64,000 bases of DNA from a virus, in the IMG/VR virus record IMGVR_UViG_3300036861_000632, positions 1 to 64,000 of that record. The stretch is one strand, 5' to 3'. The notes beneath the pieces are model-generated. The model saw only the letters and a list, made by a program, of their open reading frames with translations. It was not told the origin of the DNA and did not search any database. A program made the position numbers and the translations under genes. Shown here piece after piece: positions 6,808-33,281 of this stretch (positions are counted from its first letter, which is position 1; each line of letters opens with the position of its first letter).

Positions 6808-7253
6808 GCGAGCGTAGCCTCCTGTATCTCGACCGCCACGAGTCCAGCTTGGCTTATGGAAATCTTGTCGAAGAAAATGAACTGGTCAGTGCCGGCGGGA
6901 ATCGCATCATCTTCAACGGCGGTAGAGACGGCGAAAATGCCATCCTGCGACAGTGCCGCCAGCAATTCGGCCACCCCGCCTTCTTCGCGCATGAATTCCA
7001 ATCGCGGTTGCGGTGCCCAAAATTCGCTCAACTGCTCAACCACGAGCACACCATCTGCATCCACCGACGCGGCCAGTTCGCCGCCGATGACGAAATTGCC
7101 ACCCATGAACGTCACGTCCAACTCCGCGGCAAAGGCCGTGGCGGTGAAGACGTGCGTATCCCGGTCGTAATCGAACACGCGCCGCCGCCCCGTCGAATCC
7201 ACGTAGTCAACGTAGAAGGTCGCCGGCAACGGTGCTGGCTTGATGCAGGTCAT
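6804..7253 (-). CDS. Virion structural protein, unknown
   Basis: 149 aa, beta-rich and acidic, with 'FYVDYVDSTGRRRVFDYD' near the start. No family recognised. It is coupled on both sides by 4-bp overlaps (7253-7250 and 6807-6804), placing it firmly in the morphogenesis operon just before the tail fibre gene. A fibre-associated or baseplate role is possible, but nothing in the sequence proves it. Confidence 0.55.
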   Translation of the reverse strand: MTCIKPAPLPATFYVDYVDSTGRRRVFDYDRDTHVFTATAFAAELDVTFMGGNFVIGGELAASVDADGVLVVEQLSEFWAPQPRLEFMREEGGVAELLAALSQDGIFAVSTAVEDDAIPAGTDQFIFFDKISISQAGLVAVEIQEATLA

Positions 7254-7705
7254 TCGGGTTCCCCCCAGCCGGAGTCTTCCACCATATACTGCGCCTCGAA
7301 CGCCCGGTCGCCCAGGAACTCCATCATATCCCGGCTGTTCAGATTCAGGCTGTCATGCGTGACGCCGTGGTAGGTCCGGCGAACCCAGCGACGCGGATCG
7401 GCTTCCTCGCGGAACGTAATGACCATCGTGTAAAGCTGGTTGCGCTGGGGCACGAACGTCAGCGCCGCGCCCGTGGGCGTCTCCGGGTGCTCCACCATCC
7501 AGACCGAGCCGAGTTCGATGATGTGCGTCTCGCCGACGTGATGCGGGATGGGATAACGCGCGCCCGACGGCCGGCTCATGCGCTTCTCCAAAGCCGTTGA
7601 CATGCGGATCGTCTCGGCACAGTGATTGTGCCAGACCTCGATCTCGCCCGCGAACAGGCAGATTGTGCCTTCCTCAACGACATGGACAGTTTCAATGGTC
7701 ATCAC
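7250..7705 (-). CDS. Virion morphogenesis protein, unknown
   Basis: 151 aa. It starts 'MMTIETVHVVEEGTICLFAG' and ends with an aromatic helix. The middle has the phrase 'IPHHVGETHIIELGSVWMVE', followed by a beta-rich stretch. No known motif. ATGA overlaps on both sides tie it to the neighbouring structural genes. A role in joining head and tail is plausible from position. Confidence 0.5.
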   Translation of the reverse strand: MMTIETVHVVEEGTICLFAGEIEVWHNHCAETIRMSTALEKRMSRPSGARYPIPHHVGETHIIELGSVWMVEHPETPTGAALTFVPQRNQLYTMVITFREEADPRRWVRRTYHGVTHDSLNLNSRDMMEFLGDRAFEAQYMVEDSGWGEPE

Positions 7706-8070
7706 ACGCCTATCATTTCGCCGCTTTCGAGCCGGTAAGCCTCCGCCAGCACGTCATGGATCAAATCGCCCGGAGATCCAAAGCTGGCGGACAAAGCCCG
7801 CGTGCCGATGGATCGGCGGGTCATTGGTGTCACCAGCCGCTTCGCCGCCTGAAAGACGATCATCCCGTACTCCGCCGTGTTCGCCGCGGCGAGCGCCGGT
7901 TCGATCTCCGTCTCGTCATCGTTCAGGGCAAACCCCTCGATGCGCCCCAGCTTGAACGGCAGCCGCAAGACTTCGTTGAGCTTGTCATCGCGGAACAGCG
8001 GGATGTCGGGATCATCGTCGGCGACGATGGCCCGGAGCATTGAATGAAAAGTTGTGAGCGCGGTGCCCAT
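7702..8070 (-). CDS. Structural-region protein, unknown
   Basis: 122 aa from the ATG at 8070; an alternative ATG lies at 8040. It contains 'DDDPDIPLFRDDKLNEVLRLPF' split over two acidic segments and a helix-rich C-terminus. The start lies directly after the U-tract of an intrinsic terminator. Expression therefore depends on readthrough or an unseen promoter. No ribosome binding site is visible. It could be a head-completion (connector) protein by position. Confidence 0.55.
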   Translation of the reverse strand: MGTALTTFHSMLRAIVADDDPDIPLFRDDKLNEVLRLPFKLGRIEGFALNDDETEIEPALAAANTAEYGMIVFQAAKRLVTPMTRRSIGTRALSASFGSPGDLIHDVLAEAYRLESGEMIGV

Positions 8071-13820: not shown

Positions 13821-13954
13821 AAGAACACCGACTCATCTGTCAGCGTCGCTGTCTCCCAGGTGGTGGCTTCTACAAATGGACGCCCCGTAAGCCGCATCCC
13901 GTCGAATGCCCGAATTGCAAATCCCGAAACTGGAACCGCAAGAAAGCCGCCTGA
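13817..13954 (+). CDS. Small zinc-binding protein
   Basis: 45 aa, ATG overlapping the stop of the recombinase remnant (ATGA at 13817-13820). It has Cys at residues 8 and 12 and a CPNC pair near the end ('PVECPNCKSRNWNRK'), so one zinc site is likely. Basic residues suggest nucleic-acid binding. Only two bases separate its stop from the glycosyltransferase ATG, so the two are probably co-translated. Confidence 0.6.
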   Translation: MKEHRLICQRRCLPGGGFYKWTPRKPHPVECPNCKSRNWNRKKAA

Positions 13955-13956
13955 CT

Positions 13957-16317: not shown

Positions 16318-16529
16318 GCGCAACCGATAACCAGAAACCGTCCGCCGAAGCCCAACGCGAAGCCGTGTTGTGCTGCACTGATTTGTTAGGCTGCCCGAAT
16401 TGCAAAAGCACAAACATCATAAAACTCTGGCGGGCCGAGATCGTCCTGCCCGGTGACAACTCAGACAACTCAACCAAAGGATACCGATATGGATGCCATG
16501 ACTGCGACTCAATCTTCTACGCCCGTTAA
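16314..16529 (+). CDS. Small zinc-ribbon protein
   Basis: 71 aa, coupled to the glycosyltransferase by ATGA at 16314. 'CPNCKS' near residue 27 and 'CHDCDS' near residue 61 form a two-knuckle zinc ribbon. Such small proteins are frequent between phage genes and often bind nucleic acid, but no specific role can be given. Its 3' end overlaps the next gene by 41 bp. Confidence 0.6.
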   Translation: MSATDNQKPSAEAQREAVLCCTDLLGCPNCKSTNIIKLWRAEIVLPGDNSDNSTKGYRYGCHDCDSIFYAR

Positions 16530-16845
16530 GTGGCGCCCCGAACACGGCGGCGCATACCGCTGCCTGCGTGCCAACGAAGAGCATGGCACGAAGAAGGGTA
16601 AAATCTACATCTACGAAACGACCTTCTACCCTCAAGGCGAAATCTGCCACTACAACTCGCGCTGGCAAACGCGACTGCTCGGCGGATGCAACTCGCTTCG
16701 ACAACCCGGCGCGTTCGAGACGGTGACAATCTGCCCGTTCTGCGGCGCGACCATGTATAAACCGGAAGCCGATGCCAGCGGCTTCTTCCCGCTCGCCCAC
16801 GATGCTGCTGAGTGCGCGAAGAAAACCGGAGACTCGTCAGCCTAA
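16489..16845 (+). CDS. Cysteine-containing small phage protein
   Basis: 118 aa from the ATG at 16489, preceded by AAGGAT at a usable distance; an ATG at 16498 is the alternative. Contains 'VKWRPEHGGAYRCLRANEEH', a beta-rich middle ('GKIYIYETTFYPQGEICHYN') and a 'CPFCGA' knuckle near the C-terminus. Function unknown. The stop is immediately followed by a stem-loop. Confidence 0.6.
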   Translation: MDAMTATQSSTPVKWRPEHGGAYRCLRANEEHGTKKGKIYIYETTFYPQGEICHYNSRWQTRLLGGCNSLRQPGAFETVTICPFCGATMYKPEADASGFFPLAHDAAECAKKTGDSSA

Positions 16846-16857
16846 CGCAAAGTTAGG
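16841..16857 (+). other. Short stem-loop CCTAAC-GCAAA-GTTAGG
   Basis: A perfect 6-bp inverted repeat with a 5-nt loop overlaps the stop codon of the preceding gene. It lacks a U-tract, so it is not an obvious terminator. Its arms resemble integron core sites, but the spacing is far too short for attC. Confidence 0.35.
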
Positions 16858-16885
16858 GCATTGCCACCGGACGGAAGCGAACTCG

Positions 16886-17038
16886 ATGACCCACAACCAC
16901 AACACCACGAAGACTAAATATGCACTACAAAGCGACTTAGAAGCGATTTCCTTCGCGCAATTGATGAATGTTGCGCTAAACGAAAACATCCATGTTGACC
17001 ATCTGCCTGACAACCTGCCGGCCCGAACCGAAGTTTGA
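16886..17038 (+). CDS. Possible small protein
   Basis: 50 codons from an ATG at 16886, polar N-terminus (THNHNTTKTK) followed by a helix ('LQSDLEAISFAQLMNVALNE'). It overlaps the next glycosyltransferase by 47 bp. Composition of the helix is protein-like, but the long overlap and lack of motif make it uncertain. Confidence 0.3.
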   Translation: MTHNHNTTKTKYALQSDLEAISFAQLMNVALNENIHVDHLPDNLPARTEV

Positions 17039-17975
17039 TTACTTCTTCGACTCATTGCATCGGGAACTGTGCGGCGATTACAGGGGCGTCACTATTGTCA
17101 TCGTGGATGCGCTCCTGAATCAGCGCCCTCCGAACCTTGCAATCCAGCGGTCGGTTGCTGGCAGTGCGACACTTCACTGTGCAGACCCGAAACCGACGCT
17201 TCACTGGATAGAGCCGAAGCCGAACTTGTGGCAGGGCGTCCATCGCCTCACGAGCCAAGACTACTGGGCGAAGTGCAACGCGCTCAACACGGCGCTCTGC
17301 TACGCTCCCGATGGTTGGTTCACCGTCATGGACGATCTTGGTGTGCTAATTCCCGGCTGGGGCAAGGCGCTCAAACGCGCGATGGTAGATGACAAGATCA
17401 TCACCCTGGGCGCTTACAAGAAGGTGAAGGAATTGGAGATTGAGGACGGGGCGGTGATTTCATTCAAGCCCCACTTGAACGACAGGGGCGAAGATGTTGG
17501 CCGGGATTCCCGCTGGTCGCGCGGAAGTTTTGAAGGTCCAGTACCTGCCGTGGGCGACATGATGTTCGGCCACGTCACCGCGCCAGTTGAAGCCTTCCTC
17601 AAGATCAATGGCTACCCGGAACTCCTGTGCGATTCGCTTGGATTCGAGGATGTCATCACCGGCATCACGCTCGAAAAGGCGGGCTACAAGTTTGTGTACG
17701 ATCGGACGATGCTCGTGTTTGAGAGCGAGGAACTGCATCATCTGGTGCAAGCGGGGAACGTCAAGATGACGACGGTGAAGCGGATCGACAAAGGTTGTAG
17801 CCCCAAGGACAAATCGAACGAGGTTCTTCGCCGCGCTCGCGCTGGCGACTACTCCATCTGGAACAATTACGATTTGCGGGAGTTGAGGCAGGGCATTCTC
17901 AACGGGGGAGAATTTCCTGTGCCGCTTTCCCCTGTCGTAGATTGGTACGACGGGATGGCCTTGAATCAGATGTGA
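16992..17975 (+). CDS. GT2-like glycosyltransferase
   Basis: 327 aa, GT-A-like. It begins with the strand 'MLTICLTTCRPEPKFDYF', has a 'YAPDGWFTVMDDLGVLIPGW' segment where the DxD-type metal site lies (MDD), and a late acidic motif 'GFEDVITGITLEKAGYKFV', typical of the catalytic-base region in GT2/galactosyltransferase-type enzymes. It would transfer a nucleotide-activated sugar in the cytoplasm. Its stop overlaps the following ATG (TGATG at 17973-17977). The specific donor cannot be read from sequence. Confidence 0.75.
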   Translation: MLTICLTTCRPEPKFDYFFDSLHRELCGDYRGVTIVIVDALLNQRPPNLAIQRSVAGSATLHCADPKPTLHWIEPKPNLWQGVHRLTSQDYWAKCNALNTALCYAPDGWFTVMDDLGVLIPGWGKALKRAMVDDKIITLGAYKKVKELEIEDGAVISFKPHLNDRGEDVGRDSRWSRGSFEGPVPAVGDMMFGHVTAPVEAFLKINGYPELLCDSLGFEDVITGITLEKAGYKFVYDRTMLVFESEELHHLVQAGNVKMTTVKRIDKGCSPKDKSNEVLRRARAGDYSIWNNYDLRELRQGILNGGEFPVPLSPVVDWYDGMALNQM

Positions 17976-18700
17976 TGCCCGTCGTAACCGTCAGCCTGCT
18001 TGGTCGTCTGGGGAACAATTTATTTTCCTACGCCTACGCCCGCGCCTACGCCGAACGTCACGGCTTTGAGTTTCAGTGTGACCCGTGGATCGGGCAGAAG
18101 ATTTTCCAGATCAACGATACTCCCGTCCACGAGAAGAATCGGGCTATGGCGCGAAGAACCGAATTGGATGTCCGCGATGGCGAAAGCAACATCGAGTTCC
18201 GCACTTACGCGCAGAGTCAGGCGGCGATGATTTACACGCGGACGCAAGCGCGAGCATGGTTCAGGTTTCGCGAGGAACATCAGTATTTGATGCCACCTCC
18301 AGATGATCTGCTGGCACACCATCGCGTCGGCGACATGCAAGGCTATGGGTACCCACAAATCCGTCGCGCATCATACCTGACCGCCTGCGAGAAGTTCGGT
18401 TTCGACCCCAAGCTTCTTCGGTTTGTAACCGAGGAACATCCAACCGATGTGCCGGGCCTGACGAAGATGGGCCTTGGGTTCCTGCCCGACTTCTACCGGC
18501 TTGCAAACGCCCGAATTCTGTTTCGCGCAAATTCATCGTTCAGCTTTTGGGCATCCATCATCGGGAAGGCTGAGAGAGTGTTCAGCCCGGTCATCCGGGG
18601 ACTCGAAGGCGGACGTGAACATGATGTGAATTTCATTGAAGGATTATGGCCGCGCTTGGCCGATCTCGATGGAGTGACCGACTTACACCTACCAACATGA
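17975..18700 (+). CDS. Fucosyltransferase-like (GT11) enzyme
   Basis: 241 aa from the ATG at 17975. The N-terminus 'LLGRLGNNLFSYAYARAYAE' matches the characteristic GxGNqlFqyAfarala opening of alpha-1,2-fucosyltransferases. 'HHRVGDMQGYGYPQ' could correspond to the HxRrgDy donor motif, with Val for the second Arg and Met for Tyr. The C-terminus 'FSFWASIIG' resembles the SsFSwWaa motif. It should use GDP-fucose or a similar donor. It is coupled to both neighbours. Confidence 0.75.
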   Translation: MPVVTVSLLGRLGNNLFSYAYARAYAERHGFEFQCDPWIGQKIFQINDTPVHEKNRAMARRTELDVRDGESNIEFRTYAQSQAAMIYTRTQARAWFRFREEHQYLMPPPDDLLAHHRVGDMQGYGYPQIRRASYLTACEKFGFDPKLLRFVTEEHPTDVPGLTKMGLGFLPDFYRLANARILFRANSSFSFWASIIGKAERVFSPVIRGLEGGREHDVNFIEGLWPRLADLDGVTDLHLPT

Positions 18701-19281
18701 AACCTTTCGAGGAGCGAATGCGCTACGAGTATAACCTGACGCCCGACAGCGTGGTCATCGACGCGGGCGGGTATGAGGGGAACTTCGCCAAGATGATTGC
18801 TGACAAATACGGATGCAAGGTGTTCGTGTTTGAGCCGGTGTCCCGGTTCGCTGAAATCATCGAGAAGAAGCTGTCCCACTACCAGAATATCGACGTATTC
18901 CGATTTGGCATCGGTGCCGTAACAGGCCCGAAGAAATTTCATGTCCAGAACGATTCGACGGGCGAATTCGCCGGGAGCACTGACACCGAGATCGTCCAGC
19001 TTTTCAGCATAGATGAAATTGATGATGCACTTGGGTTCCCGCTGTTCGAGGATGACGTTTCACTTTTCAAGTTAAACGTGGAAGGGAACGAGTTTTGCAT
19101 TTTGGAGCGCGCCCTAGAAACAGGACTGGTCACTCACTGGCGCAACATCCAAGTCCAATTTCATCCAATCGTCCCTGACTACGAAGCCCGCTATCAACGC
19201 ATCCGCGAAGGCTTGCTCAAGACGCACGAGTTTACGTTTGACGAACCTTGGATCTGGCAGAATTTTGAATTACGCAAATGA
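18697..19281 (+). CDS. FkbM-family methyltransferase
   Basis: 194 aa from the ATG at 18697 (ATGA overlap). The SAM-binding fold is visible: 'VVIDAGGYEGNFAKMIADKYG' (motif I, with GGYEG in place of GANVG), 'VFVFEPVSRFAEII' (acidic end of strand 2), and 'LFKLNVEGNEFCIL', the 'lKiDvEGaE' signature of FkbM proteins with Asn for Asp. FkbM enzymes O-methylate sugars or small molecules, here probably a glycan made by the neighbouring transferases. Confidence 0.85.
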   Translation: MKPFEERMRYEYNLTPDSVVIDAGGYEGNFAKMIADKYGCKVFVFEPVSRFAEIIEKKLSHYQNIDVFRFGIGAVTGPKKFHVQNDSTGEFAGSTDTEIVQLFSIDEIDDALGFPLFEDDVSLFKLNVEGNEFCILERALETGLVTHWRNIQVQFHPIVPDYEARYQRIREGLLKTHEFTFDEPWIWQNFELRK

Positions 19282-19451
19282 AGACGTTGCTCACCAAGCT
19301 CAAAGCAAAACTGCGCGACTGGCTTTTTGCGGATTACAAATGGGTGACGCGCGCACAAGTGCAGCGTGAAATCTGTGCGGCACGGTGGGAATACCGAAAC
19401 TATCCACTCGTGCAGCGCGTTCTCTCGGAACTTCAAGAAACGATAAAATGA
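19278..19451 (+). CDS. Small basic protein
   Basis: 57 aa, ATG at 19278 overlapping the FkbM stop, and its own stop overlapping the next ATG (ATGA twice). The N-terminus is strongly basic (KTLLTKLKAKLRDWLF), followed by helical 'VTRAQVQREICAARWEY'. The coupling on both sides is the best evidence that it is real. Function unknown. Confidence 0.6.
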   Translation: MKTLLTKLKAKLRDWLFADYKWVTRAQVQREICAARWEYRNYPLVQRVLSELQETIK

Positions 19452-19627
19452 ATACCTCACACGAACCACATTCCGGCATGTTCCTGATCGTGCCGTCCAG
19501 TCTGCGGGCCTTCACCGGCATGGATTGCTACTGGGTTTTGCCGCTGACTCTTTCCGGCAATCCGGCGTTCAGCCACATCAATTACCTGACCGCTGAAGAA
19601 GTCGGGCAGGAGTTCGGAGGAAACTGA
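19448..19627 (+). CDS. Small protein of the glycan island
   Basis: 59 aa, ATGA-coupled to the previous gene and ending one base before the GT25 gene. Contains 'FLIVPSSLRAFTGMDCYWVL' and 'HINYLTAEEVGQEFGGN'. The 3' end AGTTCGGAGGAAACTG supplies a good Shine-Dalgarno (GGAGGA) for the following ATG. No recognised family. Confidence 0.55.
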   Translation: MNTSHEPHSGMFLIVPSSLRAFTGMDCYWVLPLTLSGNPAFSHINYLTAEEVGQEFGGN

Positions 19628-19628
19628 C

Positions 19629-20312
19629 ATGCACATCGGAAAATACTTCGACCAAATCATTTGCATCAACCGCGTTTCCCGTACTGACAGAAGGCGGCAC
19701 GCCGCGGCTCAGGCGATCCGTTGTGAACTGTTCGACCATGACAACTTTCAGTTCTTCACAGCCCATGATGGCCACATGCTCGACGGCACGTTCAATGGCA
19801 ACTTTGGATGCACCGCCTCTCACCGCGGCGTCCTTGAACTCATCGCGCATCACGGCTGGGAACGGACACTTGTGCTCGAAGACGACTTTGACGTGGTTGA
19901 ACCTGGCCGTTACGCCGACCACGCGAAGAACCGCCTGCCGTTCAACGAGCAATGGGCGAAGATGATCGGCGAAGTGCCGGACGATTGGGAGATGCTCTAT
20001 CTCGGCGGGCATTACGCGGAGGCACCGATTGCGCGGGTGTCCGAGCACGTCATCCGCATTGGCCGGATGCTGACCACGAGCAGCTACGGCATCACCGCGA
20101 AGTTCGCCCGCAAGATTGCGCCTCATATTTCCGGCATCGGCCCCATCGACGTGCTCTACGGCGGGTTCCACCGCGAGAACCGCTGCTACTGCTTCACGCC
20201 GCGCTTGATGGTACAGTATGAAAATCTAAGCGACCTCCAGCATCGCAAAATGGATAACTCTCAATGTATGCTGGACCCGAACCACGAGGCGATGGTGCCG
20301 TTCAGCGACTAA
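19629..20312 (+). CDS. GT25-family glycosyltransferase (LPS type)
   Basis: 227 aa, ATG at 19629 with a strong GGAGGA upstream. The pattern is that of GT25 enzymes acting on lipooligosaccharide: 'IICINRVSRTDRR' at the N-terminus, 'FGCTASHRGVLELI' (the cxxSHxxvl motif), 'TLVLEDDFDVV' (metal-binding EDD), 'LYLGGHY' and 'TSSYGITAKFARKI'. It probably transfers galactose or another hexose to a host surface glycan. It ends the plus-strand island and overlaps the convergent minus-strand gene by 11 bp, with no terminator visible. Confidence 0.88.
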   Translation: MHIGKYFDQIICINRVSRTDRRRHAAAQAIRCELFDHDNFQFFTAHDGHMLDGTFNGNFGCTASHRGVLELIAHHGWERTLVLEDDFDVVEPGRYADHAKNRLPFNEQWAKMIGEVPDDWEMLYLGGHYAEAPIARVSEHVIRIGRMLTTSSYGITAKFARKIAPHISGIGPIDVLYGGFHRENRCYCFTPRLMVQYENLSDLQHRKMDNSQCMLDPNHEAMVPFSD

Positions 20313-20946
20313 AGCCTGCATCGTTTGTATTCATGCGCCCTGTCGCGCCATCCAGTTGCTCCTTCTTTGCGAAGATTTGCAACTTGGGCGTCGGCACCGT
20401 GTAGAGCGACCGCGCTTGCAGGCGAAAGTAACCATCAGGCAGGTTGGTCACATAGACGGGGATCGTGATGATGCCGTTCGTCATGCTGTCCTCCCACTCG
20501 CAGCGGCCAGAACGAGAACCCAAATCATCGGTTGGCGGATAATAAGTGGCGTGCATGTTTGACCGGCCTACTGCGGTTCCGATTATACGGTTGGTCATCT
20601 CCGTTCCCGGCGCGTAGAACAAATCGCCCCGCCATATTTCCGTGTAAGGCTTCCGCAAGTCGGTCGTGAATCCGATGGTGTAAAAGGTGTTTGTCACAGC
20701 ATACCACGAGAGCGTCAGCTTGTTCGTAGCGACCACAGTGACGACCAGTTCGCCCGGCACCATCCGCTTGCCGGCGCGCGAACCAGCCTTGATGGACTCG
20801 ATGACCTTCGGCAGTTGCGGCGTCGCAACGCAGCCGACCAGAATGCCGACGAAGGCGGCGACCAGCCAGTTGCCCACCGCCATTTTGGCGGGAATTTGGA
20901 TTTCAGGTTTGCGGTCGGGCCAAGTAGTTGATGGTGGGCGTTTCAT
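20302..20946 (-). CDS. Exported lipoprotein-like protein, paralogue 1 beside subtilisin
   Basis: 214 aa from the ATG at 20946, which overlaps the protease stop. An internal ATG at 20883 would give a cleaner lipoprotein signal (VAAFVGILVGC). The mature part aligns by eye with the product at 23291-23785: both have GKR...PG, then 'FYTIGFTTDL..PYTEIWRGDL' and 'GRSNMHATYYPPTDDLGS'. The two paralogues flank the subtilisin gene, so they probably act with it at the cell surface. The fold resembles fibronectin/PEP-type domains of Verrucomicrobiota exported proteins, an inference. Confidence 0.7.
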   Translation of the reverse strand: MKRPPSTTWPDRKPEIQIPAKMAVGNWLVAAFVGILVGCVATPQLPKVIESIKAGSRAGKRMVPGELVVTVVATNKLTLSWYAVTNTFYTIGFTTDLRKPYTEIWRGDLFYAPGTEMTNRIIGTAVGRSNMHATYYPPTDDLGSRSGRCEWEDSMTNGIITIPVYVTNLPDGYFRLQARSLYTVPTPKLQIFAKKEQLDGATGRMNTNDAGFSR

Positions 20947-23294
20947 GGTGTGTTGGTGATGATGACTGGAAAAGGGGTGGACATCTCCACGTTCGTCCCC
21001 CGGAACACTTTTGCGAAAATCGTCTGAGACCCGCTGGCATTCGTGCCGGGGTTGAACCGGATGGCATAGGGCGGATTCGAGGCGATACCCAGCAGTGTCG
21101 CATTGCCCAGCCAGAATTCGACGCGCGGCACGGGCGGCAGGGCACTCAGGAATACCAGCGATGCGTCACTCGTGCGCTCTTGGTCGTCGAACACCACGAC
21201 CTCAAAGGCGCTGGTGCCGGGCGTTTCCAGCACGATATTCCTACGGCCTTCCAACATGTCGCTGACGCGCCCTTGGTGAAGCCACGGCTGCACGGCGTAC
21301 GACGTGGGCCGGTTGCTGGGATTCGAGGCCGTCAGATCAAAGGTGACGGTGTGTGGAGCCGGCCCGCGATTCGTGCTCATGGAGAACGCGAGTCGAGGCA
21401 CGTAGGTCGATGGATTGATGCGGATGACCGCCGTGGTCGAGACCCCAAAGTTGCCGGAGCGGTCGAACACGAACGCGCGGCCCGTCGTGGCGTTCGTCAC
21501 CGCCAGCACCGAAACGAAGTAGGGATTCGTGCGGCCGTCCGGCACCTGGTTGAATGTCCACCACGAGTTCGGCCCCACGTCCATCTGGAAAACATACGAG
21601 CACGTCTGCGGGTCGAGCCGGTTGGTATCCACCGAGAGCGTATGTTCAAACCAGCCGGCGGCATTCGTCTGAAAAGTCCAGTGGGTGATGAACTGCGAGA
21701 GGTTGGTCCGGGCTTTCTCATCCCGATACACGAACGCCGTGCGCGCCACCGACGAAATGCCGGCGTGACTGTCGAGCGCGTGGAAGGTGAACCAAGCTTG
21801 GTCATCGTAAGCCCACGGCGCGGCGGTCAGCGTGAAATCGTTGCTGGCGGTGCCCGCGGCGAAGCGATGGCTGCCAAACAGGGCGGAGACGCCCTCTCCA
21901 AAACCTGAAAGATCGAAGCCGCTTTGGAGCCGGTAGGTGATCGCGTCGCCATCCGGGTCGGTGGCGTTCGCGCGCCAGCGCACGGATTGCCCTGCGTTCA
22001 ACACCGCATTCGCACCGTTGACGGTGAGCGTGGGCGGATGGTTCGCGAACGGATGGAGCACTTCGGGATTGTTGACGAGCTTGTTGAGATTCAGCCGGCC
22101 ACCGCTGAAGCACGGCAGGTTGCGCGCATCAAGGCTGGCCTGCGAGAGCAACAACTGCTTCACCTGAAGTGGAGCGAGTGCCGGGTTGAGCGCGAATAGC
22201 AACGCGGCGGCGCCAGTGACGTGTGGCGCAGCCATCGAGGTTCCACTCAGGAACTTGTAGCCGGACGGATCGCACAATGAGCCTGAGCCGGTGCACACGG
22301 TGGAGTAAATCGAAACGCCCGGCGCGGCAAGGTCGGTGCCAAACCAACCGTAATTGCTGAACGTCGCCCGCGCGTCCTGATCGTCGGTCGCCATGACCGA
22401 AATGATCTGGTCCACCGGGATGCTCGCCGGCCAGAATTGGTAAATGTCCAGATCGCCACCGTTGTTGCCCGCCGCGCAGACGATCAACAGGCCGGCGTCC
22501 CCGGCGGCTTGCATCGCGTCGGCCAGCGCCTGATCTGGTCCACCCCCGCCCCACGAACAGTTGATGGCGCGGATGTTCACGCCGGCTTGTTTCAGATCAA
22601 CGGCCTTTTCGATCATCAACATCCCGTCGCTGATCTGCCCGCTGCCCGTTTCGTTGAGGAACTTGAGGTCGATGATCCTGAGTCCACTCCAAGCGAGGCC
22701 GGCCACGCCGACGCCGTTGTTGCCGACCGCGCCGATGATCCCGGAGCAGTGCGAGCCGTGCCCATGCTGGTCGCCGGTCGTGGTTCGGATGAGACCGAAC
22801 TGGGCTTGGTAGCCGTGCTCGCCATTTGTGCCCGTCCACGCAACGGGCGCGAGGTCAGGATGAGTAAAGTCCACGCCGGTATCGCATACGGCGATGATGA
22901 CGTTCGTGGCGTGCGTGAGGCGGTCCCATGCGAGCGGCGCTTCGATCTTCACCGGCCCCCACTGCTGGTTGAACAGCGGATCGTTTGGCACCGCCTGAGT
23001 CGTCACGATGCGGTCCTCTTGAACCGCGTCGAAGAGCGGCGAGTTTAGATAAGCGGCGAGAGCGCGCTTGGCGGCGGCATCATTCGATGGCAGCCGGACG
23101 ACATGCCAGCGGACGTACTTGAACTGGTGAACCTTTTGCGCGCCGTGCTGGCCGTGGAATTTATCCGCGTCGATTTCCGACCCCTTCTTGACCCGCACTA
23201 GGATCGTCGCCCCAGCGGGATTTACGAAGCGTTGATACGGTGCCGCGCCCAGTGACAGCGTGACCGCCAGAAGAATGAGCGCGACCAGATTCAC
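20943..23294 (-). CDS. Secreted subtilisin-like serine protease (S8)
   Basis: 783 aa. Signal peptide at 1-18 (NLVALILLAVTLSLGAA), then a propeptide-like region. The S8 domain has all catalytic elements: Asp138 in 'VCDTGVDFTHPDL', His179 in 'HGHGSHCSG', oxyanion Asn277 in 'AAGNNGG', and Ser353 in 'LSGTSMAAPHVTGAAA'. From ~410 the sequence is beta-sandwich/PKD-like ('HPPTLTVNG...TDPDGD'), with Asn/Thr-rich segments to the end. It should act outside the host cytoplasm. It is coupled by ATGA to a lipoprotein on each side. A phage-borne secreted subtilase is unusual; possible roles are virion-access proteolysis, host surface shaving or late lysis. Confidence 0.92.
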   Translation of the reverse strand: MNLVALILLAVTLSLGAAPYQRFVNPAGATILVRVKKGSEIDADKFHGQHGAQKVHQFKYVRWHVVRLPSNDAAAKRALAAYLNSPLFDAVQEDRIVTTQAVPNDPLFNQQWGPVKIEAPLAWDRLTHATNVIIAVCDTGVDFTHPDLAPVAWTGTNGEHGYQAQFGLIRTTTGDQHGHGSHCSGIIGAVGNNGVGVAGLAWSGLRIIDLKFLNETGSGQISDGMLMIEKAVDLKQAGVNIRAINCSWGGGGPDQALADAMQAAGDAGLLIVCAAGNNGGDLDIYQFWPASIPVDQIISVMATDDQDARATFSNYGWFGTDLAAPGVSIYSTVCTGSGSLCDPSGYKFLSGTSMAAPHVTGAAALLFALNPALAPLQVKQLLLSQASLDARNLPCFSGGRLNLNKLVNNPEVLHPFANHPPTLTVNGANAVLNAGQSVRWRANATDPDGDAITYRLQSGFDLSGFGEGVSALFGSHRFAAGTASNDFTLTAAPWAYDDQAWFTFHALDSHAGISSVARTAFVYRDEKARTNLSQFITHWTFQTNAAGWFEHTLSVDTNRLDPQTCSYVFQMDVGPNSWWTFNQVPDGRTNPYFVSVLAVTNATTGRAFVFDRSGNFGVSTTAVIRINPSTYVPRLAFSMSTNRGPAPHTVTFDLTASNPSNRPTSYAVQPWLHQGRVSDMLEGRRNIVLETPGTSAFEVVVFDDQERTSDASLVFLSALPPVPRVEFWLGNATLLGIASNPPYAIRFNPGTNASGSQTIFAKVFRGTNVEMSTPFPVIITNTP

Positions 23295-25072: not shown

Positions 25073-25384
25073 TTATTTGACAACTTTTCCAAGGATTGAG
25101 TCGATGGCCTGAAGCGCCTGCACGGCATTCGTCGTGCTGGATTCCTGACCCAGTGAGCCGATGCCTACGCCCTGCGTCTTGTCCGTCTGTGTGGTCTTGA
25201 ATTTTGCCAGTTCGTTGTGGGCGTCGAACACGGTGAACACATGCGTCTTGGTGGTGACGCGCTCCGTGAATTTTCCAGTGGCATCAACCTTCTCGTTGAC
25301 TTGCATGGTCGAAAGACTGCCACACCCACAGAGCAGCGCGACAGTGACCGGGGCAATGGTGAAGTAACGGCGGATGGTGTTCAT
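25073..25384 (-). CDS. Small lipoprotein
   Basis: 103 aa from the ATG at 25384 (ATGA overlap with the gene before). Signal peptide with lipobox LLCGC ('ALLCGCGSLSTMQVNEKVD'). The mature part is Thr/Gln/Lys-rich with alternating beta character. In phage lysis regions a small lipoprotein is often the outer spanin, but no matching inner spanin was identified, so this remains a possibility. Confidence 0.6.
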   Translation of the reverse strand: MNTIRRYFTIAPVTVALLCGCGSLSTMQVNEKVDATGKFTERVTTKTHVFTVFDAHNELAKFKTTQTDKTQGVGIGSLGQESSTTNAVQALQAIDSILGKVVK

Positions 25385-25614
25385 GCGGATTTCTTCCTTC
25401 GGGTTCTGGTTTTGGGACGGTTGGTGAAAAAGAAGTTGCCGGTGCGGATGCTCTGGATGAAGCAATCCAGACTTCGCATAAATGCTCCGGGGCGTTCGTG
25501 CCCCTCGCTGTGGAAATAAATATTCCCGGCGCGCACTACGCGGCAAAAGATGTCACCGCGCCCATCCTTGAGGATTACGAATTCGGTGGGGACTTTCTGG
25601 CCGCGTCGAGGCAT
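25381..25614 (-). CDS. Small protein, DUF1508/YegP-like pattern
   Basis: 77 aa. 'PTEFVILKDGRGDIFCRVV' followed by 'GNIYFHSEGHERPGAFMRSL' has the strand-strand-helix order of YegP/DUF1508 units (f.. k..nGeil. ... seg y..k..a...I). The C-terminal end is strongly basic. Function in phages is unknown. Coupled to the lipoprotein by ATGA. Confidence 0.5.
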   Translation of the reverse strand: MPRRGQKVPTEFVILKDGRGDIFCRVVRAGNIYFHSEGHERPGAFMRSLDCFIQSIRTGNFFFTNRPKTRTRRKKSA

Positions 25615-25685
25615 GGGCCACTATCAACACTTTGCACCACCAGAGTCAATGACGGATTTCTGTGGTGGTGCAATCAGTGCGCGAT

Positions 25686-25864
25686 TCAAGCGGCAGGCTT
25701 GTGGCTGTAGTGGCTCCAGATGAGTCCGGCGATGAGCACGATGGCCCCCTCACATCCTCGCCGTTGAGGACGTTGGCGGCAGTGGTTGCCCCGTGGGTAA
25801 TCAAAGCCGTGCCGATGACTTTGAGGGCGGTGCGGACGAGCGAGGTGAGTTGGTCTTGGTTCAT
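25686..25864 (-). pseudogene. Holin-like small membrane protein, split by a -1 frameshift
   Basis: The frame from ATG 25864 reads 'NQDQLTSLVRTALKVIGTAL' and continues to VLNGEDVRG. There a run of five G (25749-25745 on the minus strand) shifts the natural continuation 'AIVLIAGLIWSHYSHKPAA' into the -1 frame, ending at 25686. Together this gives a 59-aa protein typical of small phage holin-like proteins (LVRTaLk...GaliaGLiwSHysHKp). Without the shift the frame runs on as non-membrane sequence to 25646. Causes could be a programmed slip, a real mutation or a homopolymer error. Confidence 0.7.
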
Positions 25865-26262
25865 GGTGTTTTGGGAGGTTCGATGTTTGTTGCTGGAGAT
25901 GAAGCATCATCCGCCTTGAAAAGTTTCTGGTCAAGCACCCGCTTGAGAACCTTTGCGTGCAATGCCCATGTCCCGCACGCAAGCAGGAAGCCCTGCATGT
26001 AAACCTGAAGATACATGGCCACTTCCGGGCAGCAGAGCTTCGGATCGAAATCCGCGATGCACGGCCAGCCGAGGAAGAACGGGCCGAGGATCGTGCCCGC
26101 CGGAACCGTCACGAGCGGGATGAACTTGTTCGGGAAGAAACGTTGAGGCACAATCTTCAGACCGTAGCCAACTGCCAGCAATGTCACGATGAGCAGCTTC
26201 GGGCCGGTGAGCGTGATGATGGAAACGATGAGTTGGTCGATTACTTCCAACGGTGAATTCAT
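25861..26262 (-). CDS. Membrane protein, candidate holin
   Basis: 133 aa with hydrophobic helices at about residues 10-35 ('IVSIITLTGPKLLIVTLLAV'), 45-68 and 83-102, and a charged, Pro/Ala-rich C-terminal tail. Size, topology and the neighbourhood of two further small membrane proteins suggest a holin that permeabilises the inner membrane at lysis. Coupled by ATGA to the frameshifted gene. Confidence 0.5.
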   Translation of the reverse strand: MNSPLEVIDQLIVSIITLTGPKLLIVTLLAVGYGLKIVPQRFFPNKFIPLVTVPAGTILGPFFLGWPCIADFDPKLCCPEVAMYLQVYMQGFLLACGTWALHAKVLKRVLDQKLFKADDASSPATNIEPPKTP

Positions 26263-26265
26263 AGG

Positions 26266-26493
26266 TCAGTGTTTCGTCAGGTGTGTGCCAAGGTCATAAA
26301 GCAGCTTCAAGAAATCCAGCACGGCGATGAGTCCGATCCACTTGACCAGCCCGATGATCGCCTTGGCCCCAAGCCACCAGTCGCGCATCTCCTTGTGCTC
26401 GACAACCAGATCGTGCAGGACCTCATCCTGCAAGCAGCGGCGTTCGTTGAGCAACTTTTCCAGATCATCCCGGTCGCGTTTCGGTGGCGGCAT
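26266..26493 (-). CDS. Small membrane protein with cytoplasmic coiled coil
   Basis: 75 aa. The first ~40 residues are charged and helical ('RDDLEKLLNERRCLQDEVLH'). Residues ~43-66 form a single transmembrane helix ('AKAIIGLVKWIGLIAVLDFL'). It overlaps the response-regulator gene by 29 bp, so the two are translated together. It could be an antiholin or inner spanin-like protein. Confidence 0.5.
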   Translation of the reverse strand: MPPPKRDRDDLEKLLNERRCLQDEVLHDLVVEHKEMRDWWLGAKAIIGLVKWIGLIAVLDFLKLLYDLGTHLTKH

Positions 26494-26911
26494 AAGCGGA
26501 AATGGCGGCGGTGAGCGATCTCAATTTGGTGAGCTTTTCTTCCAGCGGAACATTTGGCCGGGTTACGCGCGCGAGCCGCCGCACGAAATCCGGCCCCTTG
26601 TTGAGCAGCCCGAGCGAGCCGGAAACCATGTCCTTCGCGCCCCCGATGCCCGTGATGACCACGATGGGGGTTCCGCGCGCCGTCGCCACAATCTCGAACA
26701 TTTTCCCGAGCGTTTCCGCGCTGGTCGAATCCTCCAGGGTCAGATCGAGCAGGATGAGGTCGAAATGTTTCTGGCTCAGGACGGCCAGCGCGTCCTTGAG
26801 CCGGGCGCAGTCCGTGAACTGCACATGGTCAGTGCCGTATGCCTGCTCAAACTCGTGATGGATGAGCAGCACGTCCTGCGGATTGTCTTCGATGAGCAGC
26901 AGAATCAACAT
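26465..26911 (-). CDS. Stand-alone response-regulator receiver (CheY-like)
   Basis: 148 aa. All receiver-domain landmarks are present: acidic pair Glu8-Asp9 ('LLLIEDN'), phospho-acceptor Asp56 ('DLILLDLTL'), Thr87 ('PIVVITG') and Lys105 ('LLNKGP', CheY Lys109 equivalent with the usual Pro one residue further on). No DNA-binding or enzymatic output domain follows; the last ~30 residues are a basic helix. No histidine kinase is in the window, so it would have to use or disturb host phosphorelay. The first ten codons are duplicated at 3485-3516. Confidence 0.9.
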   Translation of the reverse strand: MLILLLIEDNPQDVLLIHHEFEQAYGTDHVQFTDCARLKDALAVLSQKHFDLILLDLTLEDSTSAETLGKMFEIVATARGTPIVVITGIGGAKDMVSGSLGLLNKGPDFVRRLARVTRPNVPLEEKLTKLRSLTAAISAYAATETRPG

Positions 26912-26977: not shown

Positions 26978-29899
26978 TCATGGAACAAGCGTTACCGCGG
27001 TAATCAGTCCGTTCAACACGGTGATGGTGGCGACATCGCCAGATCCGCCACCGCCAAAGCTATAGGTGCCATCGGCTGTGGGGTCTGGCGCAAGGTAATC
27101 CGTGCCGGCCGCCGCTGCCGAAATTGCCCCGGCTCCGTCCGCCTTCACGATACCATTGACGGCACCAACAACCGGGTCCAGTTCGGTATCGACGTAATCC
27201 GTCCCCGGCGTGGCGGCGGAAATTGCCCCGGCTCCGTCGGCTTTCACAAGGCCGGTGATTGCACCGACAATCGGATCGGTTTCCGCAGTGACAACGCCTG
27301 TCAGCCCCGAACCATCACCGTCGGGTGCCAGATAATCGGTTCCGGCAGCAGCCGCCGAAATTGCGCCCGCGCCGTCTGCTTTCACGAGGCCAGTGACCGC
27401 GCCAACGATGGGGTCGGTTTCGGTGGCCACATAGTCGGTTCCGGCAACCGCCGCCGAGATGTTCCCCGCGCCGTCCGCCATGACAATCCCCGTGATGGCA
27501 CCAACCACCGGATCGGTTTCCGACCCTGCGGTTGCCGACAAGGCTCCGGCGGAAAACGTAAGCCCGGCGCCAACCGTGATTTCCTCGATGGCCCCCGTGC
27601 TCGCCGTGGTCCGGCCAAGCAACCGCGCCGTGCTCATGGTCAGGCCGGATGAACCCACCGCGCCGGAACCGGCCGCCGCCAGATTCGTGCGCGCATTCGC
27701 CGCCGTGCTCGCGCCTGTGCCGCCGTCCGCGACTGCGAGATCGGTGATGCCCGCGACGGTTCCGCCCGTGATGGCGACCGCACTGGCGGCTTGCGTGGCC
27801 ATCGTGCCGAGGCCGAGATTGGTTCGCGCGCCCGTCGCATCGCTCGCCCCGGTCCCGCCATCCGCAAGGGCGAGGTCGGTGATGCCAGTGATGGTTCCGC
27901 CGGTAATCGCCACGGCACTGGCCGCCTGCGTCGCCAGTGTATCCAATCCGAGCGTGGTTCGCGCCGCCGCCGCGTTGGCGTCATCCACCAGCGTCAGAAT
28001 GAACGCCGAGACAGTGACGCCGCCAATCTTGTTCACCGTGGCGGCGGAGGCCGTGCCCGACAGATCGCCGCCGAGAGTGGGGTCGTCGTCGCCCGGTTCG
28101 CCTTTGTATTCAAACCACAAGCCGGTGAAATCGCCGGCCGACGGACTGGCAATCACCGTCGTCGAATTCTTGAACGCGATGAAATTCTTCTCGACGCTCG
28201 TGCTGAACCCGGTGCCGATGTCGTCATCCGCCCACGCGATGTAGAGGTAGGCATTCGCGCCATTGGTGCCGTTGGTTCCGGCTTGGGCGAGCTTCCACCA
28301 GTAGGTCGTATTCGAGACGGCCTGATTGGAATGCTCCACCTTGGCCATGTAGAGCGAACCGGAGTCCGTGACCATGTGGCCGGGCAGGTAGGTGTCCGAC
28401 GTGTTGTGCGCGCCCTTGACCTGGGTGGCCAGCAGCTTGAACAGGTTCTCACAAGTGATCTGTTTCAGGGCCGGAGTCGTCTCCGGGTTCTGAAGCAGCA
28501 TCAGCATGTCGCTCGCGGCAATGGACGTGGTTTCGGCCAGTGCCTCCACGGTTGTCTGCAAGTCCTCCGCCTCGGATTCCTCGATTGCGTCAATGCGCGC
28601 CTCGTGATCCTCCAGCATCGTGATCTGCGCCGCCGAAGCGAATCCCGCCGTGGAATTGGTCGCGTTGGAATGCGTGTGGCCGATGACCGAAACAACACTC
28701 GTGTCGATCTTGACGCCGTTGCTGTCGGAGGTCAGGCCGTTGCCCAGCCGCACATTGCCGCTGAATTCCGAGCCGGTGAGAATCAGGTCCAGCGTGTCCG
28801 TGTCGGCAACGGTCGGGCTGGCGAGCGCGGCAAGCTTGGTGAAATCCGCAATCGACATGAAACCGGCAGCCGACCCGGATGCTTCATCGTGCGTGTGGTC
28901 GATGGCCGGCACGACCGCCGGATCAACCTTGAGGCCGTCGGCATCGGAGGTTACTCCCCCGCCTGTTTTGAGCCGGACATCCGCGGTGATCTGGCCGGCG
29001 GTGATCGTCAGATCGACCGTCGCCGTGTCCGCCACGGTGACATCCTCCAGGGTATTGAGCTTCGTCTTGTCGGCGGCCGACATGAAGCCGGCAACCGATT
29101 CCGTCGCGTCGTCATGCGTGTGGTCAATCGCTGGAACCACCGCCGTATCAATTTTCAGCCCATCGGAATCCGAAGTGACGCCACCGCCCGACTTGACCCG
29201 CGCGCTCGCGGTCAATTGCTGATTCGCCTGCACGGCCAGGGTGACGGTCGTTGACGACAACGCTGAAAGCGCCGGGTGATCGTTCGTGTGATGATGGTCG
29301 CCGGCCGCCGCGGTGTCCCGCGTCGTGCCGATCTTGGCCGCCAATCCGTCCACCGTGCTTTCCAGTGCCGGGCCGGAATTGATCTGCGCGCAGTTGTAAG
29401 TCGCATAGACTTCCTGCGCGCCGCTGGCGGTGATGAGATTCGAGCCGGTAAGGATGTGGACGATGCCCAGCCGCCCATCGAGGTAATAGTCCGTGCCGGC
29501 AACCCCTGTTGCAATCGTCGTGCCGCCGCCCGCCGGCCGGCGAATAAGAACAACCGAGGAAACTATTTCCCGCTCAAGATCGAGACTGCCTCCGGCTGCC
29601 ACCGGATGATCGAACACCATCGTCAACCCGGTGCCTGCCGCTTGAACCTCAACGTCGTCGGGAATGATGACTTCGCCGGTCAACGCCTGTTCATCGAGCG
29701 CCAGCGCGAGCGTTTGGTTCGTGGCGGGCACAGTCACGGGTCCGTGAGTCTCGGCCGTAATCAACGCCTCGACTTCGGCTGTCGTTGGCCGTGTGGCAAT
29801 ATCCGCGTCATGCTCGCCTTTGCGAATGCAGTCCTCATCCGCCGTCGCCGGGCCGGACGAGGTGAACTTCGGAGCGGTTGTGGCTTTCAGGTCGGCCAT
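26978..29899 (-). CDS. Long tail fibre with HxH repeats
   Basis: 973 aa. Four metal-type sites of the HxH class recur at about residues 203 (GDHHHTNDH), 258 (IDHTHDD), 333 (IDHTHDE) and 406 (IGHTHSN). Each leads into 'AGFMS.AD..KL', as in phage fibres that bind iron through His-x-His, the T4 gp37 principle. From about 640 come 'ARTTLGLDTLATQAASAVAI' shaft repeats. Residues ~790-960 contain five copies of an ETDPIVGA.TGLVKADGAGAI unit. It would form a long trimeric fibre. It lies directly after the portal gene. Confidence 0.88.
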   Translation of the reverse strand: MADLKATTAPKFTSSGPATADEDCIRKGEHDADIATRPTTAEVEALITAETHGPVTVPATNQTLALALDEQALTGEVIIPDDVEVQAAGTGLTMVFDHPVAAGGSLDLEREIVSSVVLIRRPAGGGTTIATGVAGTDYYLDGRLGIVHILTGSNLITASGAQEVYATYNCAQINSGPALESTVDGLAAKIGTTRDTAAAGDHHHTNDHPALSALSSTTVTLAVQANQQLTASARVKSGGGVTSDSDGLKIDTAVVPAIDHTHDDATESVAGFMSAADKTKLNTLEDVTVADTATVDLTITAGQITADVRLKTGGGVTSDADGLKVDPAVVPAIDHTHDEASGSAAGFMSIADFTKLAALASPTVADTDTLDLILTGSEFSGNVRLGNGLTSDSNGVKIDTSVVSVIGHTHSNATNSTAGFASAAQITMLEDHEARIDAIEESEAEDLQTTVEALAETTSIAASDMLMLLQNPETTPALKQITCENLFKLLATQVKGAHNTSDTYLPGHMVTDSGSLYMAKVEHSNQAVSNTTYWWKLAQAGTNGTNGANAYLYIAWADDDIGTGFSTSVEKNFIAFKNSTTVIASPSAGDFTGLWFEYKGEPGDDDPTLGGDLSGTASAATVNKIGGVTVSAFILTLVDDANAAAARTTLGLDTLATQAASAVAITGGTITGITDLALADGGTGASDATGARTNLGLGTMATQAASAVAITGGTVAGITDLAVADGGTGASTAANARTNLAAAGSGAVGSSGLTMSTARLLGRTTASTGAIEEITVGAGLTFSAGALSATAGSETDPVVGAITGIVMADGAGNISAAVAGTDYVATETDPIVGAVTGLVKADGAGAISAAAAGTDYLAPDGDGSGLTGVVTAETDPIVGAITGLVKADGAGAISAATPGTDYVDTELDPVVGAVNGIVKADGAGAISAAAAGTDYLAPDPTADGTYSFGGGGSGDVATITVLNGLITAVTLVP

Positions 29900-31451: not shown

Positions 31452-33281
31452 CTACCCGCACATCGCCGCGCTCTCCTCCGGCACATCGTTCCCGCCCTCG
31501 GACATCTGCTCCTTCAACCACTCCCGAAACGCCACATACGCATACATGCCCGCGTAGGCGAAGTCCTTGTTGCCGCGCGCCGAGTAGAGCCGTGCCCCGT
31601 GCGCCGACGTGAACGTGGTCCCGTTCTCGTTCGTCTTCACGAAGACGCGCGTCAACTGGATCGCCATTTTTTGCAGCAGCCGGTTGGCGTGTTTGCGTTC
31701 CTCGGTCCATTCGGCGGTTTGTTGCTGCGGCCGGTCATTCAACCGCTCCGGCAGTCCGATGAGCCTGTTGGAGATGGCCTCGTGGAACTCCGAGTGCGCC
31801 AGATCGTACAGGTTGTCATCGTGCCGGCGCGGGCATTCGCTCCACAACTCGCTGATCCGGGTGTCCTGCCACGAGAACATGGAGAGGATGAATTCCGAGT
31901 TCATCGGCAGCTTTTCCTCGTCCTCGATGCAGGCGATGGGGCGCACACGCACGTTCTCTCCTGGCACTTCACGGCGGGCCTTGGCCAGTTCGGGACGAAT
32001 CCACTGACCGCCGCCGTTCGGGTCCATCACAATCCGCGAGAATCCGAAGTGGAGATGCTTGCGTTGCAGAATCGCCGCCCATTGTTCGCCGTCCGCTCCG
32101 CGCACCTGATAGGCCCAGATGAAGTCCAGTTCCATGTCCCGCAGATCGAGGATGGATTCGCCGACCTGTCGCGCCCGCAGCACGACCACGGCGCCGTCAT
32201 CGGATTTGCGCGAGTCGGACTTGGCCGGGTCAATGCCGCAGAAATAGAACGTGGGCCTTGCGCCGATCAAGTTCGTCGGTGATCGGTGCCCCGTGATGGG
32301 CAGGACGTTCCGTTCCTTGCCGAGATTGTAGGCGGCCTTGATGAGTTCCGGCGTGTACAGCCCGCGGCCATTGTCAGACCAGATGCCCAGCAATTCCTCG
32401 CGCACCTTGGCCCGGCCTTTGCGGCGCATGTCGGCAATGTTGTCGTCATCGCGCAACTTTTCGCGGAACGACTTGCCATCGCGATACTGGAAATGGCTCC
32501 AGTCCTTGTACGAGTATTGCAGGATGGCGAAGTTCGGATCACCCGCGGCAACGCGGCGCTTGAAGTAAAGCCACCGATCGTACCCCGGATGGACGGCATC
32601 CTCGGCGGTGCCCAGGAACATCTGGTGGTTGGTCCAGAACGGGTGTTCCTTGTTGAAATTCTCGCGGTTCGTCCGGCCAATGAGTTGATCGTCGATGCCG
32701 GTTGATCCGGTCGCGTCGATCTTCGGCCATTCGTCGATGCCAAGAAAGTTGAAGCGCAGACCGGCTTGGTTTTTAGAGTCCTGCAAGAACGAACCGGCCG
32801 GCATGAGGATTTTCGATTGGTTGAGGAAATCGACCGCGTAACACGACGGGTTCTTGCTCGCCCCCTTGCTCACGTCCTCCTCAACGCCATCGAGGCCGAC
32901 CACGCGCGGTTTGCCCACCTGTGCGCGGAAGAAATCCGACTGCGCGGCGTAGCGCGAGAAGTAGGGGTAGAACGCCTGCTGCATGGTCGGGAACGACTGA
33001 AAGTAGATGGCGGCGACGTGATCGGGGATGACGATGCAGCGGAGGACGGATACCCAAAACAGGTTGACCGTCTTGGCGGAATTGTAGCCCGACGAATCCA
33101 TGACGCGCGGCACCCACCAACTGATTTTGAACCGGCTCTTTTGGAACTCGTCCATCTTGATCTTGAAGGTGAACTCGGCGAGGCGCGTCACGTCGTCCGT
33201 CATCGCGTCCTCGATCATCGTCTGAGTGATCTTCAGATGCTTGGGGACGGAGGGGATGAGGATTTGCGGGCCGTCGGTCAT
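31452..33281 (-). CDS. terL: Terminase large subunit
   Basis: 609 aa. The ATPase part has a degenerate P-loop GYNSAKT (residues 65-71, Ala for the usual Gly) and a Walker B-like 'FNFLGIDEWPK' (177-187). The nuclease part has an RNase H-like opening 'FYFCGIDPAKSD' (Asp351), the following 'RIVMDPNGGGQW' and an acidic 'DDNLYDLAHSEFHE' near the C-terminus. It cuts concatemers and drives packaging through the portal encoded next. Coupled by ATGA to the upstream methyltransferase. Confidence 0.9.
   Translation of the reverse strand: MTDGPQILIPSVPKHLKITQTMIEDAMTDDVTRLAEFTFKIKMDEFQKSRFKISWWVPRVMDSSGYNSAKTVNLFWVSVLRCIVIPDHVAAIYFQSFPTMQQAFYPYFSRYAAQSDFFRAQVGKPRVVGLDGVEEDVSKGASKNPSCYAVDFLNQSKILMPAGSFLQDSKNQAGLRFNFLGIDEWPKIDATGSTGIDDQLIGRTNRENFNKEHPFWTNHQMFLGTAEDAVHPGYDRWLYFKRRVAAGDPNFAILQYSYKDWSHFQYRDGKSFREKLRDDDNIADMRRKGRAKVREELLGIWSDNGRGLYTPELIKAAYNLGKERNVLPITGHRSPTNLIGARPTFYFCGIDPAKSDSRKSDDGAVVVLRARQVGESILDLRDMELDFIWAYQVRGADGEQWAAILQRKHLHFGFSRIVMDPNGGGQWIRPELAKARREVPGENVRVRPIACIEDEEKLPMNSEFILSMFSWQDTRISELWSECPRRHDDNLYDLAHSEFHEAISNRLIGLPERLNDRPQQQTAEWTEERKHANRLLQKMAIQLTRVFVKTNENGTTFTSAHGARLYSARGNKDFAYAGMYAYVAFREWLKEQMSEGGNDVPEESAAMCG

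Follow-up and report, generated by a model that had tools for sequence, protein, structure and literature searches.

A receiver gene between tail-fibre and holin-like genes

The stretch of DNA analysed here (the window, 64 kb) is the first part of a 93,586-base record that is classed as viral. Its minus strand carries, at 26465..26911, the gene for a stand-alone receiver of 148 residues (CheY/Rcp1-like), recognised from its residues, from Pfam, PHROGs and PDB matches and from a structural model. The gene begins with ATG inside an open frame of 154 codons, has a codon-usage score of 34 and is preceded by RNA of no special structure (z -0.05). A preliminary description of the locus had given a 148-residue protein free of an output domain, with its strand unstated; this is correct, the polypeptide past α5 consisting only of a 21-residue helix in the model, with no second domain found by Pfam.

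The surrounding cassette is ordered tail fibre, receiver, TM/CC (transmembrane/coiled-coil) protein, two holin-like proteins and a lipoprotein-like protein, all encoded on the minus strand. Directly upstream of the receiver lies a 973-residue tail-fibre-like gene (26978..29899; phrog_11393 tail fiber, E 3.8e-8). Downstream, a gene at 26266..26493 overlaps that of the receiver by 29 bp and encodes a 75-residue protein, a charged helix followed by one C-terminal TM segment (residues 41–59), which we propose as a membrane partner; neither Pfam nor PHROGs returns a match for it at E ≤ 0.1, XhlA-type profiles included. The first holin-like protein (25861..26262, 133 residues) has two hydrophobic segments and matches phrog_1129 holin (E 3.7e-5) and, below cut-off, Phage_holin_5_2 (E 0.0012). 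The second (25646..25864, 72 residues) matches Phage_holin_10 below cut-off (E 3.2e-5) and has no TM segment above the threshold used. The overlapping small membrane protein gene of the preliminary description is therefore confirmed, and its candidate holins are present as weak matches, both Pfam scores falling under cut-off. The lipoprotein-like gene (25073..25546), recognised from its sequence, has an internal ATG that gives MNTIRRYFTIAPVTVALLCGC... and sub-threshold matches alone (P_T4SS_TraN, E 0.034; phrog_6340, of unknown function, E 0.069); its location would fit a putative outer spanin. No endolysin was recognised among the neighbours scanned, a set that left out three small ORFs between 23782 and 25042.

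Beyond the cassette, a probable large terminase of 609 residues is encoded on the minus strand at 31452..33281 (phrog_38, E 0.011; Terminase_6C, E 0.097; both weak), and no relatives of the window's terminase, portal or capsid candidates were found. Two further features lie on the other side. A 783-residue subtilase with a signal-peptide-like start (20943-23294, minus strand; Peptidase_S8, E 2.4e-46) is encoded downstream of the lysis-type genes. At 13906-20312 a plus-strand block in an otherwise mostly minus-strand region encodes GH130-like, FkbM methyltransferase and glycosyltransferase family 25 proteins, which may modify surface glycans.

Conserved residues and database matches identify a receiver

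The full active-site set (E8, D9, D56, T87 and K105) is present in the window protein. An alignment of 26 rows sets the window protein beside 11 viral and 14 cellular receivers. Every row has D9, D56 and K105; E or D occupies position 8, and 25 of the 26 rows have T or S at position 87. This bears out the receiver signature read earlier from these residues. The T87-to-K105 spacing is 18 residues in the window receiver, 21 in L006 (a viral locus described below) and 22 in the other 24 rows.

The HMM comparison proposed in the preliminary description gives a divided answer: Response_reg (PF00072) matches with E 1.1e-6, and its 29.3 bits narrowly miss the cut-off of 30.2. Other phage receivers scanned with Pfam reach 40–79 bits for the same model. 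Further matches are to phrog_731 (E 3.9e-8) and, by sequence search, to receivers in the PDB (E from 1.3e-5 up). With Pfam, PHROGs and PDB all returning receivers, the opposing possibility raised at the outset, a phage family that is no receiver at all, did not materialise. We also considered and rejected a phage-only receiver family: of 14 control genomes, the phrog_731 profile and PF00072 hit an identical set of 12, and phrog_731 is for that reason read as a general response-regulator family. Identity with cRec was set aside, there being no cRec model among the Pfam matches at E ≤ 0.1; such a model is, we assume, present in Pfam. The cRec proteins of jumbo phages are likewise divergent phage receivers, but as described in the available part of PMC7824862 they are tied to NAD+ and RNA-repair systems rather than to two-component signalling. 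The window protein is almost certainly a true receiver and, judged from its conserved residues, is probably phosphorylatable.

No close relatives of the window receiver were found in IMG/VR, in phage records (tblastn) or in the genomes searched. Phylogeny, suggested beforehand as a route to the host donor, yielded a poorly resolved tree with too little signal to name one; the phage rows need four label changes, and the starred branches are compatible with one origin.

A receiver fold lacking helix α4

Folded as a single sequence without an alignment, the window receiver gives a poor model (pLDDT 50). AlphaFold2 with 23 alignment rows gives pLDDT 76 and pTM 0.71, with confidence high to approximately residue 60, fair to residue 90 and modest beyond. 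The modelled strands span residues 2–7, 30–35, 52–56, 83–87 and 102–104, and the helices 11–25, 38–45, 65–79 and 107–116, followed by an extra C-terminal helix (123–143). This is the (βα)5 receiver fold except that α4 is unformed, no helix being modelled between residues 88 and 101. A structural check had been advised for the Asp pocket; E8/D9 and D56 lie on strands β1 and β3, for both of which the model's confidence is high.

Foldseek returns 221 PDB matches at E ≤ 0.001, and the best 50 of these are titled receivers, response regulators or related proteins, one being titled only 'sensor protein'. The top match by VIA-align is Rcp1 (Z 14.7, rmsd 2.2, 118 aligned residues). Many receivers tie within 1 Z of Rcp1, so the structure does not fix the receiver subfamily. 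The closest entries, Rcp1/Rcp-type proteins (1jlk and 1i3c) and 3kht, are themselves stand-alone receivers (Z 14.7, 14.5 and 14.5; rmsd 2.2; 118–119 residues; 22–24% identity); the window protein differs from the Rcp1 types in its missing α4, its added C-terminal helix and its phage-borne position beside holin-like genes. Structural similarity also extends to the CheY-like or response regulator entries A0A6J5RMP2 (143 residues) and A0A8S5LY51 (298 residues) of uncultured phages.

The model, with its missing α4 and extra helix, suggests either an output contact unlike CheY's or a reduced dependence of this copy on phosphorylation. A rival reading is an adaptor that works independently of phosphorylation, in which the loss of α4 would leave the window copy bound to a constitutive, structural role beside the membrane protein. 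Such an adaptor agrees with the absent α4 and with a Thr–Lys spacing shorter than in all 25 other rows, but all five active-site residues are kept and the strands β1 and β3 are confidently modelled, and we consider it improbable.

Many related viral receivers are fused to, or neighbour, TM/CC proteins

Three profile scans of IMG/VR yielded 18 distinct records with a related receiver. The TM/CC protein is fused to the receiver, overlaps it or is within one gene of it in 11 of the 18, is two genes away in one (L006), and is absent or not recognised in six. The fusions come in two orders. In L004, L005 and L007 a receiver-CC-TM protein of approximately 300 residues is followed by a PAS histidine kinase and then by a second response regulator, as read from sequence; in L011–L013 the order is TM-CC-receiver (281 residues, apparently one protein seen three times). 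TM/CC and receiver genes overlap in L009 and L096, and in L008 as well provided that translation begins at the first of its two possible starts; one small gene separates them in L094 and L095. The receiver of L015 has no TM/CC neighbour and none was recognised for L010, L014 and L055–L057, whose phage label is that of IMG/VR. Phage genes lie near the receiver in L006 (an XkdF-type protease) and in L009, L094 and L015 (terminase, portal and tape measure); for the remaining records the phage label rests on the IMG/VR classification. Receiver and TM/CC protein thus occur as adjacent genes, as overlapping genes and as fusions in either order.

Between L008 and L009 the TM/CC proteins share 31% identity, and the partner in L096 has a weak match to a holin family (phrog_689, E 4.4e-4). 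A scan with the L008 and L009 TM/CC proteins, intended as an unbiased test of the pairing, found only L009's own record. Just upstream of the TM/CC–receiver pair in L008 there is a GDSL-type lipase gene (7127-7729; E 2.3e-11).

Set against three records taken in segments and against the L006 and L015 loci, the window's record has the receiver and few other proteins in common, a methylase-like protein and a DnaB helicase among them. The window terminase drew no match from 11 virus records or from a bacterial genome, in a search run without positive control. With the terminase unmatched and so few other proteins shared, the receiver–TM/CC pairing is not the simple descent of one phage.

HATPase_c is found in 5 of 15 virus records, one of which has a second match that looks gyrase-like. 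None was found in the window's 93.6-kb record, itself possibly a fragment, and this fits the use of a host kinase. Some of the phages encode their own kinase. Between tail genes in the record of L095, L097 (8066-9604) encodes a 512-residue receiver-HisKA-HATPase-receiver hybrid kinase, which this phage has besides its stand-alone receiver; its sister, the record of L094, gave no match to HATPase_c. A three-gene two-component operon (receiver-CC-TM fusion, PAS histidine kinase and stand-alone response regulator) is present in the large viral records L052 (10001-12441), L053 (10001-12410) and L054 (1947-4402).

As to the host of the window phage, its style allows no more than a guess at Verrucomicrobia. 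Among 288 genomes of that phylum, 21 have candidate matches to profile A2 at E ≤ 1e-12 (28 rows, 2.7e-15 to 8.5e-13), 26 of the rows lying in frames of at least 176 residues and two in short ones (131 residues, and 136 residues with a stop). The TM/CC profile A10, run without positive control, matched 0 of 387 at E ≤ 1e-6.

Cultured Alteromonas phages carry receivers among lysis genes

The preliminary description had called phage-encoded receivers rare. A typed receiver consensus matches 230 of 50,697 phage records, and many of the 60 matches listed look like bacterial chromosome fragments deposited as phage; to that extent rarity stands, yet genuine cases recur in unrelated phages. Ten loci of the phage collection, out of several hundred matches, were examined. 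Three do not support the arrangement found in the window: in MW462191 a 'PhoP' gene lies beside cytochrome genes, in Komp_PAO1_1 the match is opposite an annotated gene, and in OQ658365 the locus has almost no annotation.

The lead to Alteromonas phage V22 came from a search of viral structure models. In seven cultured Alteromonas phages (V22, A5, PB15, XX1924, R8W, H4 and R9Y1) the receiver gene follows tail genes at a distance of one to three genes and adjoins a TM/CC gene, amid holin, endolysin or spanin genes; R9Y2 and R9Y3 also gave receiver matches in the search. V22 has the order chaperone, amidase, CC protein, receiver, overlapping Rz-like spanin and 2-TM protein, and A5 the order chaperone, CC protein, receiver, overlapping Rz-like spanin, 2-TM protein and annotated endolysin, with the endolysin three genes after the receiver. 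The overlapping spanins match phrog_4297 (E 7e-6 in V22, 2.9e-8 in A5), and in both phages the CC protein has an N-terminal hydrophobic stretch that falls below the TM threshold used. Like the window protein, the CheY-like V22 gp30 and A5 gp11 stand alone after tail genes, are overlapped by the next gene and are followed by lysis-type genes; they differ in having no tblastn match to the window receiver and in occupying another part of the receiver superfamily in the poorly resolved tree.

In PB15 a 3-TM protein and a phrog_937 'hemolysin' (E 1.8e-16) precede the receiver, which is followed by an M15 peptidase (E 2.7e-13) and a 3-TM holin (phrog_3427, E 2.6e-40). XX1924 repeats this order, except that a DUF5675 protein replaces the peptidase; the XX1924 'hemolysin' also stands just before the receiver (phrog_937, E 1.2e-12), and its last gene is, by sequence, very like the PB15 holin. 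We take phrog_937 and phrog_1193, both labelled 'hemolysin', to be of the XhlA type. Such proteins share with the window's 75-residue protein a charged helix and a C-terminal TM segment, but it matches neither family. R8W and H4 share the order tail fibre, annotated class II holin, TM/CC, receiver, membrane protein and terminase, and R9Y1 the order tail fibre, TM/CC, receiver, annotated lysozyme and 75-residue protein, in all three with 4-bp overlaps.

Published annotations of these genes point elsewhere. In the available portion of PMC10579305 the CheY-like gene is assigned to a host-recognition module, and the genes next to it are said to have no known function; in that text 'spanin' and 'holin' are absent and 'lysis' occurs once. 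Membership of a tail-fibre or host-recognition module, proposed for A5, V22 and P24, agrees with the receiver lying zero to two genes past tail-fibre or chaperone genes in the window, V22, A5, XX1924 and R9Y1. It sits poorly with what follows the receiver (spanin, holin, endolysin or lysozyme genes), with a partner that is a membrane protein, and with the holin placed between fibre and receiver in R8W and H4, and we judge it very unlikely.

The gene might alternatively be an auxiliary signalling gene (a moron), its product working on the pathways of the host as a phosphate sink or a competitor for a host kinase and found beside lysis genes since late operons tolerate insertions after the tail genes. 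V22 CDS-30 is listed as a class II auxiliary gene in the part of PMC7289586 available, and the portion of PMC8228385 at hand names R8W gp48 PhoB and gp46 holin. A receiver devoid of a DNA-binding domain and the L015 receiver, which has no TM/CC neighbour, are also in keeping with a free signalling protein. TM/CC fusions in two orders, overlapping genes and the same type of partner in unrelated phages argue instead for a membrane partner over a free decoy, and leave the auxiliary gene an unlikely explanation. As to R8W gp48 itself (153 residues; L107, 8436-8897), it is a receiver flanked on one side by a holin/TM-CC pair and on the other by another membrane gene; only a receiver domain scores above the Pfam cut-off, with no DNA-binding domain, so we doubt the printed name, and the low-phosphate reading may need revision.

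Adjacency controls

Across the seven cultured-phage stretches (94 annotated genes), a TM/CC gene is abutted by 7 of 7 receivers and by 12 of 87 other genes. This comparison is support and not a test, because the rule is crude, was chosen with the data in view and counts two of the receivers themselves as TM/CC, because there is some relatedness among the phages, and because the spanin is what satisfies the rule in V22 and A5. A stricter automatic rule was applied to 11 metagenomic records or loci, where 10 of the 369 genes lie directly against a TM/CC gene. Going by coordinates, these 10 include the receiver in just two of the eight records with an unfused receiver, the window and the L009 record. 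The spanin in V22 and A5 and the weakness of this stricter control slightly lowered our estimates for the reading below.

A proposed receiver-controlled lysis switch

Lysis genes often follow tail genes, and for this reason shared location alone is weak support for a functional link. The fusions, the overlapping genes and the cultured phages with recognisable lysis genes go further, and it is likely that the receiver is part of a lysis module; that the TM/CC protein is the receiver's partner is also probable, though less firmly so, from the arrangement of the sequences. The receiver would be a subunit made late, within the lysis region, together with the small TM/CC protein and the holin-like proteins. 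A host histidine kinase would set its phosphorylation state here, some relatives encoding a kinase of their own. That state would most likely alter the binding of the receiver to the coiled coil of its partner, and altered binding could in turn advance or delay holin triggering and lysis. We give a probability of roughly 0.5 to this reading, in which phosphorylation of a late-region receiver by a host kinase tunes lysis through a TM/CC partner; control of lysis by phosphorylation is the step that we take to be about as likely as not. Against a lysis switch count the partner's lack of a family match, the absence of a recognised endolysin, the weak holin matches, the Response_reg score narrowly below cut-off, the records in which the receiver has no recognised TM/CC neighbour, the weak stricter control and the missing α4, part of the usual output face. 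Among the roles floated in the preliminary description, the timing of lysis gained backing from the arrangements above, while nothing specific spoke for motility, for envelope state or for the titration of a phosphorelay.

Precedents are partial. Phage N4 has a pinholin, gp63, with a regulator, gp62, for which cytoplasmic control of holin triggering and lysis inhibition are proposed; the 'Receiver domain' of gp63 is a conserved region near the TM domain, and no phospho-receiver is described in the available part of that source (PMC12642591). A bacterial lysis cassette in Yersinia entomophaga is reported to be under a PhoB-like regulator. In the portions of the literature available to our search, we recognised no published proposal of receiver control of phage lysis.

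How phages time lysis by host condition is an old question, with superinfection and membrane-energy signals among the clear cues. If the reading is true, a receiver in the lysis cassette would be a direct wire from two-component sensing to the burst decision. More tentatively, and with somewhat less confidence than for the window itself, phages of several families may share a receiver and TM/CC lysis switch in which a host or phage kinase gates the holin system and sets lysis time by the state of the host. The arrangement occurs in cultured phages (R8W, H4, R9Y1, PB15, XX1924, V22 and A5), which makes the proposal testable now, and if it is true the printed labels 'PhoB' and 'auxiliary gene' would be revised in Alteromonas phages.
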